Assembly (NCBI GenBank): GCA_015654675.1
Contig: JAATGM010000023.1
Coordinates: forward strand, 1 to 64,000
Reading direction: 5' to 3'
Origin: Planctomycetota bacterium
GTDB lineage: Bacteria; Planctomycetota; Phycisphaerae; UBA1845; UTPLA1
DNA length: 64,000 nucleotides
This document shows, one piece after another, positions 1,663 to 48,228 of the stretch. Numbering within the stretch: the stretch's first letter is position 1; the number at the start of each line of letters is the position of its first letter. The position numbers were made by a program, and so were the translations under genes. The notes beneath the pieces were generated by a model. The model did no database searches and was not told where the DNA came from. It saw only the letters and a program-made list of their open reading frames with translations.

Positions 1663-3639
1663 TTGCGTTTGCCGGACGCCGGAACGAGTCTGACGAGGGC
1701 GGATCGCCGCGCGTCTCGCGCGGCTTGGGTAGTCGGGCTCGTCGCGGGGGCGTCGGTTGTCTTTCTGCTTTCGTGGTTCGAATTGGCGAGCGTGGACCTG
1801 GGGTACCACCTCGCGTACGGACGGCGGTGGCTGGAGACGCATCGGATCGTCGATTGCGATCCGTTCATCTTCGCGGCGCAGGCGGGGCGTTTTGCCAATG
1901 CAAACTGGCTGGGGCAGGTATGGATGGCCTCGGCGGACAAGCTCGGCGGCGCGACGGGATTGGTCGCGATGCGGACGCTGCTGATCGCGGCGACTTTTGG
2001 AGGAGTAGCGTGGGTTGCGGCGCGGCGCGGCGCGGGAGCTGCGGTGGGATTTGTGCTCGCGCTGGCGGGCTTCGCGGCGTACGAGCGATTTGATCTCCGA
2101 CCGGAGTTGTTCAGCTACGCGCTGCTCGTGGCCCAGTTGGGTGTTTTGGTGGCGGGGCCACGACGGATTTGGATTGCGGCCGCGGTGGCGTTTGTATTGC
2201 AGGTGCTATGGGTCAACCTGCACAGCTATTTTCTTGTCGCGCCGCTGATGACATGTGCGTGGCTCGTGGCGGAGCGGGTGCGGGGCATTTTCGAATCTGG
2301 ACGACGAGAACTGAATGGTTCGCTTTGCCGCGCCGCTGCGGTGTTGGGTGGGCAAATCATCGGTTGCTTTGTGAATCCGTGGTTTGCAGAGGGGGCCGTT
2401 TTTCCGATTCGAACGCTTTTGTTTCTCAGAGCGCAGGGCGTTTCGGCTGGGGGACCGAGCGGAGGAGCGGGCGGGCCGTGGTCCGCCATATCGGAATTCC
2501 ATTCGCCCTGGAACTACATCGGATATGCGGTGAATGGGCATACGATTGAGGCGTGGTTGGTGCTGCTGGCCGTTGCGGGGATCGGCGTGGCCGCGGGGCT
2601 GCGGCTCGGACGATGGGGCGATTCGGCGATCATCGTGCTTCTGGGTGGGATGTCATTTTCGATGCGGCGCAACATCGCGATGTTCGCCATCGGGGCGACA
2701 CCGCTCGCAATCGGCGCGATCGTGACGGCGTGCGCAGGTTTGCGCATTCGCCGAACGGCGAGCGCGATTGGATCGATCGTGCTGGTTTACGTGGCGGTTT
2801 GGCTGGGCTGGTCGATCCGATCGGGGGAGTTTTATTTTCGGGAGCTACGGGCCAATCGAAGATTTGGATTCGGCTGGAATTCGTCCGCGTTTCCGATTGA
2901 GGCGGCCACTTGGATACGCGGGCAACAATCAGTTGGGCCGAAAGTGTTCGCCGATTTCGGGAGTTCGAGCAATGTTATTCCGCTTCTGCCGGCGGGTTGG
3001 CGGGTCTATGCGGACACCAATACCTTCGCCTATCCGCCCGAGGTGCTCGCCGCCGTACAGCAGATTTCGGCGGGGGTGAGCGAGTATCGGAGCTTGTTTG
3101 ACGCCGAGGGCGTCAACGTCGTGCTTGTGAATGCGGCGTCGAGTTCGAAGGGGCTGGCTGAGCAGATGGCGGCTGATGGGGAGTGGGCGCCGGTCTGGTT
3201 TGACCGGGCGTTCATCGTCTTCGTCCGTCGGACGTCGGAGTTGGCCGAACTGGTAGAGCGGAGCGCCGTGCACCCGCAACAGTTGGATGTTGAAAGCTGG
3301 GTATCGGCGGCGAAGCGAGCGACCGGCGACGCGGGCTGGGAATTGGCGCAGAGCGCTGGTGTGCCCCTGGCGCTGGGATGGTATGAACAGGCGGCGGCAT
3401 TGTTGGAGCGGGCCACAGCGCTCGAGCCGCGCTACGGCCTGGCATGGATGAATCTTGGCACCGCGTACGGGCAACTTGCTATGACGGCCGGGCGCTGCGG
3501 CGCGCCGACTGATCGTGTGCGTGATCAGCTTCAGCGGGCCAAGGCGTGCTTCGAGCGGGCGCTACAAATCGACCCCGGCGACACGCTGGCGGGGAGGAAT
3601 CTCAAACTGGCCGAGCAGGGATTGGGGACGCTGCGGTAG
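1663..3639 (+). CDS. Polytopic membrane protein, GT-C-like, with C-terminal TPR
   Basis: 658 residues, TTG start with a GGGAGAG ribosome site just upstream. The first 420 residues contain many hydrophobic segments. The first extracytoplasmic loop carries SVDLGYHLAYGR..LE..RIVDCDPFIF, the D..(G/W)YHL..GR..L....I...DPF pattern common in predicted GT-C-type membrane glycosyltransferases. A soluble region with YADTNTFAYPPEV follows, then a TPR-like end (AAALLERATALEPRYGLAWMNLGTAYGQLA). It is followed 6 nt later by a paralogue of the same architecture. Glycosyltransferase activity is inferred from topology and loop motif only; donor and acceptor are unknown. Confidence 0.7.
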   Translation: MRLPDAGTSLTRADRRASRAAWVVGLVAGASVVFLLSWFELASVDLGYHLAYGRRWLETHRIVDCDPFIFAAQAGRFANANWLGQVWMASADKLGGATGLVAMRTLLIAATFGGVAWVAARRGAGAAVGFVLALAGFAAYERFDLRPELFSYALLVAQLGVLVAGPRRIWIAAAVAFVLQVLWVNLHSYFLVAPLMTCAWLVAERVRGIFESGRRELNGSLCRAAAVLGGQIIGCFVNPWFAEGAVFPIRTLLFLRAQGVSAGGPSGGAGGPWSAISEFHSPWNYIGYAVNGHTIEAWLVLLAVAGIGVAAGLRLGRWGDSAIIVLLGGMSFSMRRNIAMFAIGATPLAIGAIVTACAGLRIRRTASAIGSIVLVYVAVWLGWSIRSGEFYFRELRANRRFGFGWNSSAFPIEAATWIRGQQSVGPKVFADFGSSSNVIPLLPAGWRVYADTNTFAYPPEVLAAVQQISAGVSEYRSLFDAEGVNVVLVNAASSSKGLAEQMAADGEWAPVWFDRAFIVFVRRTSELAELVERSAVHPQQLDVESWVSAAKRATGDAGWELAQSAGVPLALGWYEQAAALLERATALEPRYGLAWMNLGTAYGQLAMTAGRCGAPTDRVRDQLQRAKACFERALQIDPGDTLAGRNLKLAEQGLGTLR

Positions 3640-3645
3640 GCAATC

Positions 3646-5643
3646 ATGGGGCGGGGGAGAATCGCTACAATCGGCCGCGTGATTGAGACGGCTGTTGGCG
3701 CGACGAATCGAGAGCGGGTCGCATGGCGCGTGCTGTTGGCGTGCGCGATGGTCGCGGCGGGTTTGTTTGTGGGGGCGATTTGCTGGTTCGAGCTGGCGAG
3801 CGTCGACCTGGGTTACCACCTTTGTTACGGGCGGCAGTTTCTGGAACGCGGAGTGATTGTAGTCCGCGACCCGTTCATTTACGCCGTTGCGGATCATTTC
3901 TTCGTAAATGCGAATTGGGGTTTTCAGGTTGCTATCGCGTGGCTGGATCGCGTGGGCGGTGTCGCTGCGCTGCAGAGCATGCGCATCGGCTTGGCAGGAA
4001 TCGTCTTGCTCGGCGTGATGTCCGTTGGACGCGGTGCGGGGCTGGGATGGCGCGGCATACCGGTGTTATTGGTGCTCGTGGGGCTGGGTGCGTATGAGCG
4101 ATTTGACCTTCGACCCGAGCTGGTCAGTTACGCTGCGATGGTTGTTCAACTGTGCCTGCTGGTCTGGCGGCCGAGGAAGATGTGGATCGCATGCGCCGCG
4201 GCGTTTGCTGTTCAACTCGTCTGGGTCAATTCGCATAGTTACTTCCTGACCGGACCGCTGCTCTATGTCGCGTGGCTGGCGGGAGACTGGCTAAGGTCGC
4301 TGATCTGGCGAGCCGGGGATGATGGGCGAGCGCGGCGCGTCGTGCTGGCGATGCTGGTCGCGCAGCTTGTGGCGTCGTTTTGCAATCCGTGGGGCGCGCG
4401 GGGGGCGTGGTTTCCGGTACAGACGCTGTTTTTCCTGCGGGAGCAGAAAGTATCGGAAGGGTACATGGAGGCAATGGGGGGCGGGCCGTGGGCTTCGATC
4501 GGCGAGTTTCATTCGCCGCTGACCTATGTCGGTCTGCCGACTAGCCGTCGCACGATTGACGTTTACGTTGGGTTGCTTGTTGTGGCCGCGGTTGGCGTGG
4601 CGGCGGCTCTGCGATCGCGGCGGTGGGGCGACGCGGCTGTGATGGTACTGCTTACTGCGATGTCGTTGAGCATGCGGCGGAACGTCGCGCCATTCGCGAT
4701 CGGCACACTGCCGTTGGCGCTGGCGGCGATCGGCAGCTTGTCTATTTCCTTGGGGCGATGGCGGAATTGGATTGTGGTGGGATCGCAGCTGTTGGTGATC
4801 GGAGTGGGGACGTATTGGCTGCCACAGATCTGGACGGGGCGATTTTATGCGGAGGAACTGCGGCAGCGGCGAGTTTGGGGGACGGGGCTGAATGCCGGGA
4901 CGTTTCCCATCGCTGCCTGCGACTGGATTCGGGCGCAGCCGGGAATTCGACCGCGCGTGTTTGTGGATTTTTTCACTTCGAGTAACACGCTGCCGTGGTT
5001 GCCGAAGGACTGGCAGGTGTTTGTCGATACCAACACCTTTGCGTATCCGCCTTCGGCGCTGCGGACCATACAGGACATTACGAACGTCAATCAACCGCAT
5101 GGGCCTTTCTTTGACGCCGAGGGGATCAACGTTGTCCTGCTGCATCCGACGAATCAGACACAGCGATTGATTATGAAACTGGCGGAAGACCCGGGCTGGG
5201 CATTGGTCTACGTCGATCCGTCGTTTTTGATTTTTGTCCGGCGGATTCCGGAGCATGCGGCGATCATCGCTGCGAATCATCCGACTGAGCAGAACATGGA
5301 TCTGGCGGCGTGGGTGCGGGCGGCTTCGCGGCCGCATCAGTGGGCGGGATTCGAGTTGGGGATGCTGGCGTGGGGACCATTGGCACTGGGTTGGGACGCG
5401 GCTTGCGTCGAGCTTTTGCGGCGGGCGGTGGAGTCGATGCCGTCGTCGCCGATGAACTGGATGAATCTGGGGACGTCGTATGGGCAGTTGGCGATCCGGG
5501 CCGGGGAGCAAGGGCGATTGGATGAGCAGGAGCCATTGTTGAACGAGGCACGGCGATGCTTCGAGGCGGCGCTTCGGCTGGAGCCCGACAGCCCGATTGC
5601 GAAGCGGAATCTTCAGATGGTTATGAAGGCGCTCGGGAACTAA
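3646..5643 (+). CDS. Paralogue of the upstream GT-C-like/TPR membrane protein
   Basis: 665 residues. It aligns along its whole length with the preceding gene: WFELASVDLGYHLCYGR, DPFIYA, NANW, a multi-TM core, VDTNTFAYPPS, and a terminal TPR-like part (LRRAVESMPSSPMNWMNLGTSYGQLA). The two genes are 6 nt apart and surely co-transcribed, the result of an old tandem duplication. As in the first copy, the acidic residues in the first periplasmic loop suggest a GT-C fold, and the TPR end suggests a partner-binding or assembly role. The ATG at 3646 gives about 33 residues before the first TM; later in-frame starts are possible. Confidence 0.7.
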   Translation: MGRGRIATIGRVIETAVGATNRERVAWRVLLACAMVAAGLFVGAICWFELASVDLGYHLCYGRQFLERGVIVVRDPFIYAVADHFFVNANWGFQVAIAWLDRVGGVAALQSMRIGLAGIVLLGVMSVGRGAGLGWRGIPVLLVLVGLGAYERFDLRPELVSYAAMVVQLCLLVWRPRKMWIACAAAFAVQLVWVNSHSYFLTGPLLYVAWLAGDWLRSLIWRAGDDGRARRVVLAMLVAQLVASFCNPWGARGAWFPVQTLFFLREQKVSEGYMEAMGGGPWASIGEFHSPLTYVGLPTSRRTIDVYVGLLVVAAVGVAAALRSRRWGDAAVMVLLTAMSLSMRRNVAPFAIGTLPLALAAIGSLSISLGRWRNWIVVGSQLLVIGVGTYWLPQIWTGRFYAEELRQRRVWGTGLNAGTFPIAACDWIRAQPGIRPRVFVDFFTSSNTLPWLPKDWQVFVDTNTFAYPPSALRTIQDITNVNQPHGPFFDAEGINVVLLHPTNQTQRLIMKLAEDPGWALVYVDPSFLIFVRRIPEHAAIIAANHPTEQNMDLAAWVRAASRPHQWAGFELGMLAWGPLALGWDAACVELLRRAVESMPSSPMNWMNLGTSYGQLAIRAGEQGRLDEQEPLLNEARRCFEAALRLEPDSPIAKRNLQMVMKALGN

Positions 5644-6570: not shown

Positions 6571-7158
6571 TTATGCCCCGGCGGCCCGCAATTTGGACTG
6601 TTCCGCGACCAGCGAGCCGTCCTGCGTTCCCCAGAGTTGCTGGCTGAAGCTGATTTTCTTTTCGCCGTTGTAGAAGTCGGTGATGCGGCTGGTGCCGGAC
6701 TCGACGGTGTCGCCGCCGCTGTAATCAATGGCGGAGAGCCATGCGGCCATTTCGTCGCTGTATTCGGCGGGGAAGACGATGGCGACGACGTGCGGATTGA
6801 GCGCGCCGGCGAGCTCGGCCAGTTGCACTTTGGCGCGTCCGGGGGGCGGCGATTTTTCGGCGAGTTTGCAGAGCGTGATGAAGTCGTTGCGGGCGGATTT
6901 CGCGTCGCGGCGGAAGAACAGGAAGCCGTCTTCCAGTTGGAATCGCTCGTTGGAGACGCCGGCCATCTCGATGCGGCCGTCGGGATGGACAAATCGAATC
7001 TTGAAGACCTTGAGATCGGCGGATTTGCCGGACTCAAGCAGGGCGGCCACGTCGGCGGCGGTGAGGCCGGTCGTGGTCTGGCGGCCGTCGACGACGACGT
7101 ACTGGCCGGCCAGTGGTTTCTTTGCAGCGAGCAATGTCGGATTCATGGTTGTTTCCAT
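6571..7158 (-). CDS. Hypothetical protein, 195 residues
   Basis: Begins METTMNPTLLAAKKPLAGQYVVVDGRQ; the second Met (residue 5) is an equally possible start. Soluble, mixed composition, no signal peptide or TM segment, no motif I can name. The segment VFKIRFVHPDGRIEMAGVS suggests a beta-rich domain. It lies just downstream of tyrS (6 nt after the tyrS stop, same strand) and is followed at once by the 61-residue ORF, so all three are probably one transcript. Function unknown. Confidence 0.6.
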   Translation of the reverse strand: METTMNPTLLAAKKPLAGQYVVVDGRQTTTGLTAADVAALLESGKSADLKVFKIRFVHPDGRIEMAGVSNERFQLEDGFLFFRRDAKSARNDFITLCKLAEKSPPPGRAKVQLAELAGALNPHVVAIVFPAEYSDEMAAWLSAIDYSGGDTVESGTSRITDFYNGEKKISFSQQLWGTQDGSLVAEQSKLRAAGA

Positions 7159-7164
7159 CGTCTG

Positions 7165-8370
7165 TTATTCTATCCGGACGGCCTTGCGTTTGCCGACGCG
7201 GATGAGCATTCCTTTCTTGGGGTCGATGCGAGCCTGCGGGTCGGCGATTTTCTCCTCGTTGATCGAAACGCCGCCACCTTCGATGAGACGGCGGGCCTCG
7301 CTGGTGGAGCTTGCGAGGCCGGCGGTTTTCAGGAGGGCGGCGACGGCTATTTCGCCGGGTGGAACCTGCACGGCCGGGATGTCATCGCGCAGGCCGCCAT
7401 CGCGGAAGACACGATCGAAGAGGTCGGACTCGGCCTGGGCGGTGGCGGGATCGTAGAACTGGGCGACGATGGTCCGGGCCAGGCGGGCTTTAGCTTCGCG
7501 CGGGTGGGTTTGCTTTCCATCGCAGAGTAGCGTGATGTCTTCGGCCGGCGTCTCGGTTAGAAGCGTGTAGTAGTTCGCCATGAGGGCGTCCGGGATGGAC
7601 ATCAGTTTGCCGAACATGTCTTTGGGGGCGTCGTTGACGCCGACGTAGTTGCCGTAGGACTTGCTCATCTTCTGGGTGCCGTCGAGCCCGACGAGGATGG
7701 GCATGACCATGACGATCTGGGGCGGCTGGCCGGCGGCGAGCTGGAGGTCGCGGCCGACGAGATTGTTGAAGGTCTGGTCGGTGCCGCCGAGCTCGACGTC
7801 GGAGTGGATGTTGACCGAGTCCCAACCCTGCATGAGCGGGTACATCAGCTCGTGGAGGCCGATGGGGGTTTCGTCGGCGAGGCGAGTGGCGAAGTCTTCG
7901 CGCTTGGTCATTTGCTGCAAGGTCATCTGGCCGGCGAGCTTGAGGACGTCGGCGAAGGCCATCGTTCCGAGCCATTCGGAGTTGCGGCGGACTTCGAGTT
8001 TTCCGGGGCGGGTGTCGAGGACTTTGCCGGCCTGGGTGAGGTAGGTGGCGGCGTTGATATCGACCTGTTCGGGGGTGAGGACGGGGCGGGTTTTGGAGCG
8101 GCCGGACGGGTCGCCGATGCGGGCGGTGAAGTCGCCGATGATGAGGACGGCGACGTGGCCCAAGTCCTGAAATTGCCGGAGCTTGCGGAGGACGACCGCG
8201 TGGCCGAGGTGAATATCCGGGGCGGTCGGGTCCATTCCCAGCTTGGCGCGGAGGGGTTTTTTGTTTTTCGCGGCGAATTCGAGGCGATTGGCGAGATCTT
8301 TTTCGGAGAAGACGCCTTCGCAGCCGCGAGTCAGTTCGGCGACCTGCTGATTGACGGGGATGCTGGACAC
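7165..8370 (-). CDS. tyrS: Tyrosine--tRNA ligase
   Basis: 401 residues from GTG at 8370. Class I aminoacyl-tRNA synthetase that attaches tyrosine to tRNA-Tyr in the cytoplasm. The HIGH motif appears as HLGH (residues 54-57), the class I lysine loop is KMSKS (234-238), and the tyrosine/tRNA region reads HELMYPLMQGWDSV with VELGGTDQ. An S4 RNA-binding domain closes the protein (LLKTAGLASSTSEARRLIEGG). Length fits the roughly 400-residue bacterial TyrRS type. A longer open frame reaches 8733, but the extra part is low-complexity and the family N-terminus matches the GTG start. No T-box leader is evident upstream. Confidence 0.96.
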   Translation of the reverse strand: MSSIPVNQQVAELTRGCEGVFSEKDLANRLEFAAKNKKPLRAKLGMDPTAPDIHLGHAVVLRKLRQFQDLGHVAVLIIGDFTARIGDPSGRSKTRPVLTPEQVDINAATYLTQAGKVLDTRPGKLEVRRNSEWLGTMAFADVLKLAGQMTLQQMTKREDFATRLADETPIGLHELMYPLMQGWDSVNIHSDVELGGTDQTFNNLVGRDLQLAAGQPPQIVMVMPILVGLDGTQKMSKSYGNYVGVNDAPKDMFGKLMSIPDALMANYYTLLTETPAEDITLLCDGKQTHPREAKARLARTIVAQFYDPATAQAESDLFDRVFRDGGLRDDIPAVQVPPGEIAVAALLKTAGLASSTSEARRLIEGGGVSINEEKIADPQARIDPKKGMLIRVGKRKAVRIE

Positions 8371-9730: not shown

Positions 9731-10123
9731 ATGGACTTGGCCGTGAAGACGCAGGGAGAGATTGAGGCCGCCATTTGCGACGGGATCAGTCACTTCGAGC
9801 AGGAATACATGGGGCGGGGACCCAAGGATATTCACGCCTTCCTGATCAACGACCTGCTGGTGGTTCGGCTGAAGGGCGTTCTCACGGCGGCTGAGCAACA
9901 ATTGGTCAAGGTACTTCCATCCGACAAGGGGCGGGATCTGCTCAAAGAGGTTCGAAGCGAGTTGATCGAAACGGCACGACCCTTAATGGAGGCGATGGTG
10001 AGGGACGTGACCGGCGTCAGGGTGGTGAGCCTGCACCACGACATCAGCACGTTGACGGGGGAGGAACTCGTGATTTTTACACTGAGCCAGTCACCGCTAT
10101 TTCGTGATTCGAAGAGAAAGTAG
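9731..10123 (+). CDS. DUF2294 domain-containing protein
   Basis: 130 residues. The whole protein resembles the DUF2294 family: EQEYMGRGPKDIHAFLINDLLVVRLKGVLTAAE, then GRDLLKEVRSELIE, a MVRDVTGVRVVSLHHDIS segment and a VIFTLSQSP end. The biochemical role of this family is not established. Cytoplasmic, monocistronic. Two inverted repeats follow; they fit a terminator for the opposite strand better than for this gene. Confidence 0.75.
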   Translation: MDLAVKTQGEIEAAICDGISHFEQEYMGRGPKDIHAFLINDLLVVRLKGVLTAAEQQLVKVLPSDKGRDLLKEVRSELIETARPLMEAMVRDVTGVRVVSLHHDISTLTGEELVIFTLSQSPLFRDSKRK

Positions 10124-10357: not shown

Positions 10358-11158
10358 TTAGCGGCCGCGTCTGGTCGAGCGCCTTACGAGCAACGCGATG
10401 CCAGCCAGAGCGAAAGTCACCGTTGCCGGTTCCGGAATTGCCGCGCAGTTGGTGATCATGTTGTCGTCGAGGGTCACCGCACCATTTCGGGCCAGGGCGC
10501 TGCCTTCGAGGATGCTGGCACCGGTGGTCATGGTGATGCTCGTGAGCGCGAGGATGTGGCCTTCAAAATCGGTGCCAGTTCCCAGCGTCGCCGAGCTGCC
10601 AACCTGCCAAAACACGGTGCACCCGCCAACCCCGCCACCGTTGTTGATCGTGACGACGGAGGAGTTGCTTGCGGTGATGAGCGTGCTCCCGATCTGGAAA
10701 ACAAACTCGGCATTCGGGTCGCCGAGGTTGTCCAACGTGAGCGTTCCGGTGAGAAAGGCCGACGATGAGAAGAAGTAGACGCCCGGAATGAGTGTCAGCC
10801 CGCCAAGGTCCTGACCAGTCAGGTCTGTATCAAAGGCCAGACCCGCGGCAACGTTATACGCCGTGGTCAGATCGCCTTGTGCCTGCAGGCCGGCCGCGTC
10901 GGCGGAATGCATCACGTAGGGCGGCACCATGATTCCCGGCGGCATGCCCGTGATGGCGGAGCCAGGGCTCACCCCAAGATCGCCACCGTCAATAATGGAT
11001 GGGCCGGTGTTGGTCACGGTAGTTCCAGCCAATACCGCGAAGTTTCCGGCTGTACCGAGGTTAATGGCGGCCGTCGCCGGTGGTGTGAAGGCGGCGGTGG
11101 CTGCAATCATTGTGAGCGCGCAAGTAATCATTCCGAACTGATTGAGTGACTTAATCAT
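10358..11158 (-). CDS. Ice-binding-like (DUF3494) exported protein with PEP-CTERM tail
   Basis: 266 residues from ATG 11158, chosen because GGAG precedes it at good spacing and a signal peptide follows (SLNQFGMITCALTMIAATAAF). The mature part matches the DUF3494/ice-binding beta-solenoid family: INLGTAGNFAVLAGTTVTNT, GGDLGVSPGSAITG, PGVYFFSSSAFLTGTLTLD. The C-terminus is a PEP-CTERM sorting signal: PEP (IPEPATVTF), a hydrophobic helix, then RRSTRRGR. PEP-CTERM proteins are handled by exosortase and anchored or released at the surface. Many DUF3494 proteins are adhesins or surface proteins rather than antifreeze proteins, so ice binding itself is unproven. A structured leader candidate lies upstream at 11345-11500. 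Confidence 0.85.
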   Translation of the reverse strand: MIKSLNQFGMITCALTMIAATAAFTPPATAAINLGTAGNFAVLAGTTVTNTGPSIIDGGDLGVSPGSAITGMPPGIMVPPYVMHSADAAGLQAQGDLTTAYNVAAGLAFDTDLTGQDLGGLTLIPGVYFFSSSAFLTGTLTLDNLGDPNAEFVFQIGSTLITASNSSVVTINNGGGVGGCTVFWQVGSSATLGTGTDFEGHILALTSITMTTGASILEGSALARNGAVTLDDNMITNCAAIPEPATVTFALAGIALLVRRSTRRGR

Positions 11159-11344: not shown

Positions 11345-11500
11345 AAAAAAAAACCGACGAGGCCGAATACCCTTGGGGCATTCGATCGCGTCGGCTTACT
11401 CAACAACGGGCCTTCCGGTTTCCCGGGCTGCCGTTTGTCCAGTCATCCGAAGAGTTCGATTCGTTCTTGCGGAAACTCTTCCTTCTTAGTGGAGGGATGA
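11345..11500 (-). ncRNA. Candidate structured leader or small RNA ending in an intrinsic terminator
   Basis: On the minus strand a hairpin with arms GAAGAGTT/AACTCTTC (8 bp; plus-strand 11449-11480 region) is followed by a GC-rich segment. Then comes a terminator stem pairing 11389-11394 with 11354-11359, containing an inner CGAAT/ATTCG stem and CCC/GGG, and ending in nine uridines (plus-strand A tract 11345-11353). It lies about 190 nt upstream of the PEP-CTERM gene on the same strand. An AT-rich TATTAT box near 11548 could be a -10. It does not match the riboswitch consensus motifs I checked by eye. It may be a leader/attenuator or an independent sRNA. Confidence 0.4.
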
Positions 11501-12126
11501 TACGAGTAACATTGCGCCAATACAAACAAAATTCACACAATGCATATAATAAGTAGCCCGGAGGGAGCGCGGCGCGGGTCAGTATCCGCGACTAGCGGTG
11601 AGGGATTGGCCTTGGGTTTGATAATACACATTCTCACTGGCCGCACTTCTACACAGTAGTAGGAATACCTATCGATAGCGACGGGCCGTTGATAGCGCCA
11701 GGGGTCAACTCATCCGCAGAAACCATGCGGGGATTACGCCGTCTTCGATCAAATGTGGCTCACGCTGTTCGAAATAGTCGACCGACGAAGTCGGATCGGA
11801 ACGCGCTTGCAGGGGCATTTTACCGTGGGCCAATCTGGTGGCCTTACGGAAGTCAAGATGGTGCAGCCATCTGGTACGGGCGTCTCCCAGTCAAATGAAA
11901 GCGAGTGCCACCACCAACAGTACCGGCGCGGGCACGCGTCACGCGGGAGTGCCTTGGCGAGCGCTATGTCAGAAGCGCTTGGCTGGTTGGGCGTGAAAAT
12001 GCGGACGGACGACGGATCATTCATCTCATGGCTCATTTGGTCGTGGTTCTTGGAAAGCGAGTATGCAGGCTCGCGTTCGCATCATGGCTCGGTCGATCCG
12101 CCGCGACGCGGTGCATGAGACAAGAC
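11501..12126. other. Intergenic region, nothing recognised
   Basis: About 600 nt with only short overlapping open frames on both strands. None has a good ribosome site, wobble-position bias or a family resemblance. The composition is less GC-rich around 11520-11690. No tRNA or insertion-sequence ends were seen. Confidence 0.4.
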
Positions 12127-12624
12127 CTAGTCGTCGATCTTGATCGTGGGCTTGCTTGCAACAGAGTGCAGAGGGAGGGGCGTTCTCAGCACCTTCAGAA
12201 ATACAGGCAGCAGGAGCAACGTGCCGCCCGCAAGCGAGGCCGAAATCTTAGACAGTCCGGGGGACTGCGAATAGGCAAACTGCCGGAGATCGCCATGACG
12301 CATCATCTCCGGTTCTAGCCAAGTGCGTGAGATTAGTAGCAGCAGGCCCGTTACGACGAGTGCGGAACCCCATATCGCAGCCATTTGCCAGCCGGGGGAA
12401 TTGGCTGCCCGCGTCACGCCGTCGATTGCCAGGCAAATCGTCAGACCCAGTGCGAGACTGACGAGGAAAAATGGAATGCCGAGACTCAGTACCACGTCGA
12501 AATGCTTTGTCCATGTGCAGACGGCAATGAAGCCGATTGAGGCGCCACATGTACCGATGACGCCGCCGAGATAGCCGCCGATTCGTCCCCAGTTGTTGTT
12601 CGTCTTTTCGATTGGAGTGGGCAT
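12127..12624 (-). CDS. Four-TM membrane protein of unknown function
   Basis: 165 residues with hydrophobic segments at about 14-38, 43-67, 82-100 and 130-146. The N-terminus MPTPIEKTNNNWGRIGGYL is polar, as expected for a cytoplasmic start. No family motif recognised. It is followed upstream and downstream by noncoding DNA, so it is probably monocistronic. Confidence 0.55.
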   Translation of the reverse strand: MPTPIEKTNNNWGRIGGYLGGVIGTCGASIGFIAVCTWTKHFDVVLSLGIPFFLVSLALGLTICLAIDGVTRAANSPGWQMAAIWGSALVVTGLLLLISRTWLEPEMMRHGDLRQFAYSQSPGLSKISASLAGGTLLLLPVFLKVLRTPLPLHSVASKPTIKIDD

Positions 12625-48030: not shown

Positions 48031-48088
48031 GCTGGGTTCCCGGTTGGGACGGTTCAGGGTGATTCCTGAGCCGGTCCTGAATCGAACC

Positions 48089-48162
<74 letters not shown>

Positions 48163-48228
48163 TTTTTCATGATCGCCTCGGATGCGGCCTTCGGGTCGTG
48201 TTGGGGCGATTTTCATTTTCCGGGGGCG

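Follow-up and report, generated by a model that had tools for sequence, protein, structure and literature searches.

A conserved leader RNA of Planctomycetota, apparently undescribed, in which a putative receptor hairpin is predicted to exclude an intrinsic terminator in front of stress-type genes

Leaders in which a terminator competes with an antiterminator are a known kind of regulatory RNA. The decision can depend on a protein, as in antitermination of the BglG/LicT, HutP and ANTAR types, or on a small ligand as in the crcB and pfl RNAs, which bind fluoride and ZTP, respectively; the c-di-GMP-I riboswitch is an example of an RNA that occurs many times in one genome, in front of dissimilar genes. 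In passages of PMC2864571 the receptor hairpins of crcB and pfl are described as overlapping a transcription terminator, and binding should raise expression. Table 1 of the same paper (2010) also lists, without an Rfam number, the Rhodopirellula-1 motif, a probable cis-regulatory motif of Planctomycetes and Proteobacteria whose rating as an RNA is ambiguous. A further motif, which parts of PMC11109978 describe before yjbJ (CsbD-like), consists of two hairpins, the latter of which was likened to an intrinsic terminator.

The locus of the present study lies in a window of 64,000 nucleotides (the whole stretch of DNA that was analysed) from a planctomycete genome. A first-pass annotation, made by a model from the letters, had noted on the minus strand a hairpin, a GC-rich middle and a terminator stem with nine uridines, about 190 nt before a gene on the same strand. 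These features are present at 11482-11345, and the minus strand from 11515 to 11340 folds with -65.5 kcal/mol; 200 shuffled versions average -48.4 (z -4.2), and none of them is as stable. The distance from the U9 tract to the ATG of the gene was measured as 186 nt. That this gene (10358-11158, minus strand; ATG 11158-11156, GGAG upstream) codes for an ice-binding-like protein, as had been supposed, is borne out by a match to Ice_binding (PF11999, E 5e-56); the PEP-CTERM motif, named in the same proposal, scored just below the cut-off (20.5 versus 20.7 bits).

All features of the element are encoded on the minus strand. A -35-like hexamer TTGTAT (11520-11525; 3/6) is located 17 nt before a -10-like hexamer TATCAT (11497-11502; 5/6), both found by eye with the letters checked; the pair is weak (8 of 12), a consensus scan gave no promoter at this leader, and transcription would presumably start near 11490. 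There follows a variable upstream hairpin, P0 (11449-11482, arms 11482-11474 and 11456-11449), which is suggested by the fold and by a family-wide excess of stability and whose 3' arm shares two bases with P1a in this copy. The conserved core hairpin, a putative receptor and antiterminator, extends over 11389-11455 and was found with the core-only covariance model R2 (66.0 bits, E 3.5e-15) in addition to its covariation. In its outermost helix P1a, the 5' strand UCGG (11447-11450) pairs with CCGA (11394-11391), which also lies within the 5' arm of the terminator. P1b (11398-11443) joins ACU (11443-11441) to AGU (11400-11398) and shows two-sided changes in distant copies, P2 (11409-11432) joins GGC (11432-11430) to GCC (11411-11409), with one pair more in the consensus, and P3 (11415-11426), indicated by the fold and by covariation, is a CCGG/CCGG helix with a GAAA loop (11422-11419). 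The intrinsic terminator stem-loop (11354-11397), assigned by its fold and by terminator covariation, is directly followed by the U9 tract (11345-11353). It appears in a consensus scan, which found 3 sites in 5 kb compared to a shuffled mean of 4.2; the assignment therefore rests on the long stem and its conservation and not on the scan. Upstream of the leader and on the same strand, a 165-aa frame with membrane-like stretches and without a Pfam match was found (12127-12624), and the ~640 nt between this frame and the element are free of called genes. On the plus strand, ~1.2 kb past the leader, an MpsC gene (9731-10123; PF10057, 121.8 bits) is convergent with the ice-binding gene.

A match to known RNA families had been denied by eye, and the search with Rfam 15 (4227 families) agrees. 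At gathering scores a tRNA-Asp gene (48088-48163, plus strand) was the sole hit across the whole window; on the element region up to E 5 only mir-33 was reported (E 4.5, 13.8 bits at a cut-off of 50), outside the core and taken as a chance match, and no family matched any of 20 loci up to E 1. This sets the element apart from the c-di-GMP-I riboswitch, which it resembles by a GGGCA close to the centre of the core and by its many copies before unlike genes. It likewise separates the element from crcB and pfl, the models of which were both included in the search. With these two it shares the overlap of a (here putative) receptor hairpin with a terminator, at least as PMC2864571 describes them in part; the gene set is a different one, and a ligand is in our case only presumed. 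Two hairpins before a stress-type gene are also the arrangement of the yjbJ motif, compared here by its description in parts of PMC11109978, in the main text of which the string 'planctomyc' is absent. Rhodopirellula-1 is known in Proteobacteria according to the table of PMC2864571, whereas no proteobacterial name occurs among the 80 listed matches of our element; judged by the description in that table and not by a consensus, the two may be the same motif. A full-text literature search that included passages of PMC2864571, PMC11109978 and PMC9029176 did not find a description of the element. The window candidate is one copy of an RNA family of Planctomycetota that appears to be undescribed, with the caveat of Rhodopirellula-1.

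That the candidate belongs to a multi-copy family with a common stress-type gene set is a point that the first-pass annotation had missed. When this genome was searched at the DNA level, six further copies of a ~116-nt unit came to light, with 72-78% identity. The covariance model R1, built from these seven copies, returned 21 matches in this genome, namely the same seven in sense orientation and 14 on the opposite strand over them, the latter because the terminator is palindromic. Among 61 genomes (the own genome and 60 relatives of its family and order) R1 matched at E 0.01 in 27, of which 25 were counted as strong and as element genomes; the weak matches in G014 and G016 (21-23 bits) were left out. 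In a species collection a degenerate core pattern occurs in at least 117 stretches, compared to ~3.7 expected by chance from the base count. Of the 80 pattern stretches among the matches listed, all but one, called just 'bacterium', bear planctomycete names (Phycisphaerae, Pirellulaceae, Isosphaeraceae, Planctomycetaceae, Kuenenia and others). They include the named strain Bythopirellula polymerisocia Pla144 (locus L167) and, with the exception of locus L150, are matched by R1 at E 1e-12 (79/80). In a phylum-wide sample R2 matched in at least 7 of 294 genomes, the own genome counted, which is a lower bound since only 17 candidates were scored per genome; the spread in this sample is wide but patchy. 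A plasmid search yielded one partial match (Ketogulonicigenium, E 0.08), which we take as chance. The hits tabled from the genome scans, opposite-strand shadows left out, numbered 69 in sense orientation (68 in alignment A5); 4 of 119 R1 hits at pattern loci were dropped because they were cut off by the locus end, and the 184 tabled hits represent 167 distinct copies. Loci L087, L094, L160 and L176 are islands in which three or more leaders, with one gene each, stand within a few kb.

The core is a hairpin of ~68 nt in which the short helices P1a-P1b-P2-P3 are combined with conserved internal loops. After 8 of the 167 copies had failed the position pattern, removal of near-duplicates left 118 of 159 cores, of which one of unusual length was omitted and 117 were aligned with MAFFT. 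In this alignment 92.1% of the cells are paired and 115 two-sided cells stand against 31.7 in the shuffled control, in which the relatedness of the copies is ignored; when the partners are slid against each other, pairing drops to 31-55%. With nine distant cores added (126 cores), the variable pair of P1b occurs as U-A, G-C, A-U and C-G with 13 of 126 cells unpaired, and its 5 two-sided cells were equalled in 0 of 2000 shuffles; P2 changes in many ways. P1a is nearly invariant: one pair shows one two-sided change (to A-U in L239, at a position that the terminator of this copy does not use), few changes are found elsewhere, and the outermost pair cannot form in roughly one third of the copies. 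Its support consequently comes from complementarity and folding and not from strong covariation. Compensatory changes hence point to a conserved, possibly receptor-like structure for P1b, P2 and P3, and weakly so for P1a. The unpaired bases A12, G14, A24, A30, G56, G61, G67 and A71 are more than 90% conserved in the 117-core alignment. The 53 nt around the element start fold more stably than shuffles do (mean z -1.4; two control windows gave -0.1 and -0.3), which is consistent with a variable hairpin P0. In two genomes the leaders of KaiC-like genes (L087, 3304-3418; L085, 8705-8822, minus strand) carry UCGGUAG instead of UCGGAUG, which hints that certain leaders move together with the gene they precede. 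Across the family such co-inheritance is weak: leaders that share a target but come from different genomes have a likeness of 0.697 versus 0.685 for others, and 28 of 300 label shuffles reached as high a value.

Absence of covariation had been named in advance as a finding that would speak against the candidate; the terminator covaries as well as the core, with two-sided changes at 14 of 20 pairs in an alignment fitted to that structure. Its 5' arm includes the 3' strand of P1a. In the predicted folds of 152 copies, RNAs cut shortly after P1a contain this helix in 143 cases; the full-length RNAs never do, and 147 of them contain the terminator. When 40 nt of the leader upstream are included (151 of the 159 copies), P1a is predicted in 120 truncated and in 0 full-length RNAs, and the terminator in 146. 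For the window copy, P1a formation in the presence of the upstream leader amounts to 0.47, 0.85 and 0.81 at three lengths; since the upstream leader lowers P1a formation, P0 presumably competes in some copies, that of the window included. Nine copies were detected by the core-only model; in all of them the core is followed by a U-run hairpin that overlaps P1a (eight detected by script, L242 by eye), and the terminator sequences have diverged; for the distant copy L244 the predicted full-length fold retains the core with an incomplete terminator. By these folding models, the intrinsic terminator and the conserved hairpin would be mutually exclusive, and we consider it highly probable that the element is a terminator/antiterminator switch. 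A peptide-coded attenuator was also considered and rejected: no more than 48 of 68 copies retain the recurrent AUG of the core, the part that was scanned, as judged by its middle base.

Genes around the 167 distinct copies were called with a custom codon-usage script. Of 164 copies, 160 share their strand with the next gene downstream (binomial p 3e-42), three further copies having no called gene before the locus end; with the upstream neighbour the strand is shared in 82 of 155, i.e. at random (p 0.52). A nearly fixed downstream and a random upstream orientation identify the element as a 5' leader. Called starts follow the element end at a median of 62 nt, and 134 of 160 lie within 200 nt past the terminator or overlap it; 26 are beyond 200 nt, and the 21 that overlap the element were probably placed too far upstream. 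Promoter pairs with at least 9 of 12 matching positions precede 59 of 162 copies (mean 8.6 and maximum 19 in 20 shuffled sets). Across the family, -10-like sites are most frequent 40-59 nt ahead of the element, and its leaders are presumably transcribed. That the element is a cis leader appears to us nearly certain. The "structured leader or sRNA" of the first-pass annotation is thereby narrowed: gene orientation, covariation, promoters and the terminator-excluding stem argue for the leader, and a stand-alone sRNA is not favoured.

The first downstream gene is within 420 nt in 152 of 160 cases, of which 150 were taken; without two very long proteins and one duplicate, 147 proteins were scanned. 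They include 42 MpsC, 6 KaiC and 6 sigma-70-type proteins, 5 ice-binding proteins, 4 desaturases, 4 DUF1571, 3 DUF892, 3 CsbD, 3 transglycosylase-associated and 2 DUF1328 proteins. Hsp20, Hsp70, Usp, SufB, a carbohydrate phosphorylase and a glucose-6-phosphate dehydrogenase were found as further, singly tested targets. In the own genome the leaders precede genes for ice-binding, MpsC, DUF1571, baeRF family 12/Host_attach, DUF892 and thioesterase-like proteins and for a hybrid histidine kinase, the last ~295 nt downstream of its leader. Together these targets resemble a stress regulon, as judged largely by the roles usually ascribed to the families. At locus L075, an island with two leaders, genes for CsrA (5049-5390, minus strand) and a sigma-70-type factor (6767-7612, minus strand) are found, and a frame at 2668-2928 (minus strand) looks by eye like a second CsrA.

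We propose, as the probable mode of action, that this cis-acting 5' leader turns its gene on when a receptor hairpin blocks premature termination. RNA polymerase would start at a sigma-70-type promoter and would make the variable hairpin P0 and then the conserved ~68-nt core hairpin. By default the terminator would win and an RNA of ~145 nt would be released, which could act in trans as well. A signal that stabilises the core would block the terminator and allow the polymerase to read on; the switch would presumably be of the ON type. We assume that such a signal is a ligand of the core, and we lean towards a small molecule or an ion, i.e. a riboswitch, rather than a protein, because loop bases are conserved and because MpsC, the one candidate protein compared for co-occurrence, is absent from several genomes that have the element. 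Judging by the gene set, the input may be a general stress signal.

The same leader architecture might also operate with a core that is held by a regulatory protein, perhaps a product of the regulon itself such as MpsC or a CsrA paralogue, and autogenous circuits of such kind exist. MpsC tracks the element in the 61 genomes (21 with both, 4 with the element only, 3 with MpsC only, 33 with neither; Fisher p 1.5e-9, kinship ignored), and an MpsC type of lower score (<95 bits, our own cut) is present in 18 of 25 element genomes versus 0 of 36 others. Moreover, 46 of 155 copies have an MpsC gene as their divergent neighbour upstream, 42 of 147 have one as direct target, and CsrA genes are near in 14 loci. 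However, the element does without an MpsC match in G015, G030, G046 and G051 and, in the phylum sample, in two of seven element genomes (G093 and G280), five having both; conversely, 13 of the 18 MpsC genomes of that sample gave no element match with 17 candidates scored per genome. One of these 13, G298, has the lower-scoring MpsC type. No core match at E 0.01 was found near MpsC in the MpsC-only genomes G018, G034, G054, G197 and G335 or in G298, and a comparison of MpsC with solved structures gave a chance-level match only. MpsC was accordingly rejected as an obligatory partner, and so was a CsrA site, since the GGA in question, 93% kept at its A, lies partly in P1a and not in a loop. For a target motif of the ANTAR or BglG type, too, the 20 loci gave no Rfam match. 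Control by such a protein seems rather unlikely to us, though it is by far the most plausible of the competing explanations.

A leader that senses temperature, in which cold or heat rather than a ligand would tip the competition of core and terminator, would suit the 5 ice-binding and 4 desaturase genes among the 147 targets if cold were the signal; a pure thermosensor does not need conserved unpaired bases, the targets Hsp20 and Hsp70 do not point to cold, and we give this explanation very little weight. Slightly less still is accorded to a stand-alone sRNA family that acts in trans next to an incidental gene: a promoter signal of its own, a terminator and several copies per genome would be in line with it, but neither the orientation and distance to the downstream gene nor the recurrent target families would be expected. 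The copy number, together with a strongly palindromic part and opposite-strand scores of up to 47 bits, could finally recall a dispersed palindromic DNA repeat (REP/MITE-like) of no regulatory role; copies that have diverged and covary by base pair, on a strand that is nearly fixed relative to the next gene, make this hardly credible.

Returning to the leader with a ligand-binding core, we put forward only tentatively that it represents a new riboswitch class, so far found in Planctomycetota only, that senses general stress and switches a whole stress regulon by antitermination. To our knowledge, little is known about the control of stress genes in planctomycetes. The regulon would comprise sigma-70 factors, CsrA, KaiC, MpsC, chaperones, and ice-binding and membrane proteins, and its control would parallel, at the level of RNA, the anti-sigma or partner-switching systems known from other bacteria; since genes for sigma factors are among those preceded by the leader, a single signal sensed by RNA could be passed on to a cascade of transcription. 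Should the element prove to be a riboswitch, the ligand would probably be a stress signal of general interest. One conserved RNA before many stress-type genes would provide a handle on the regulon, would make its signal directly testable by a ligand search with the 68-nt RNA, and would link proteins of unknown role that have the leader in common (MpsC, DUF1571, DUF892 and baeRF family 12).
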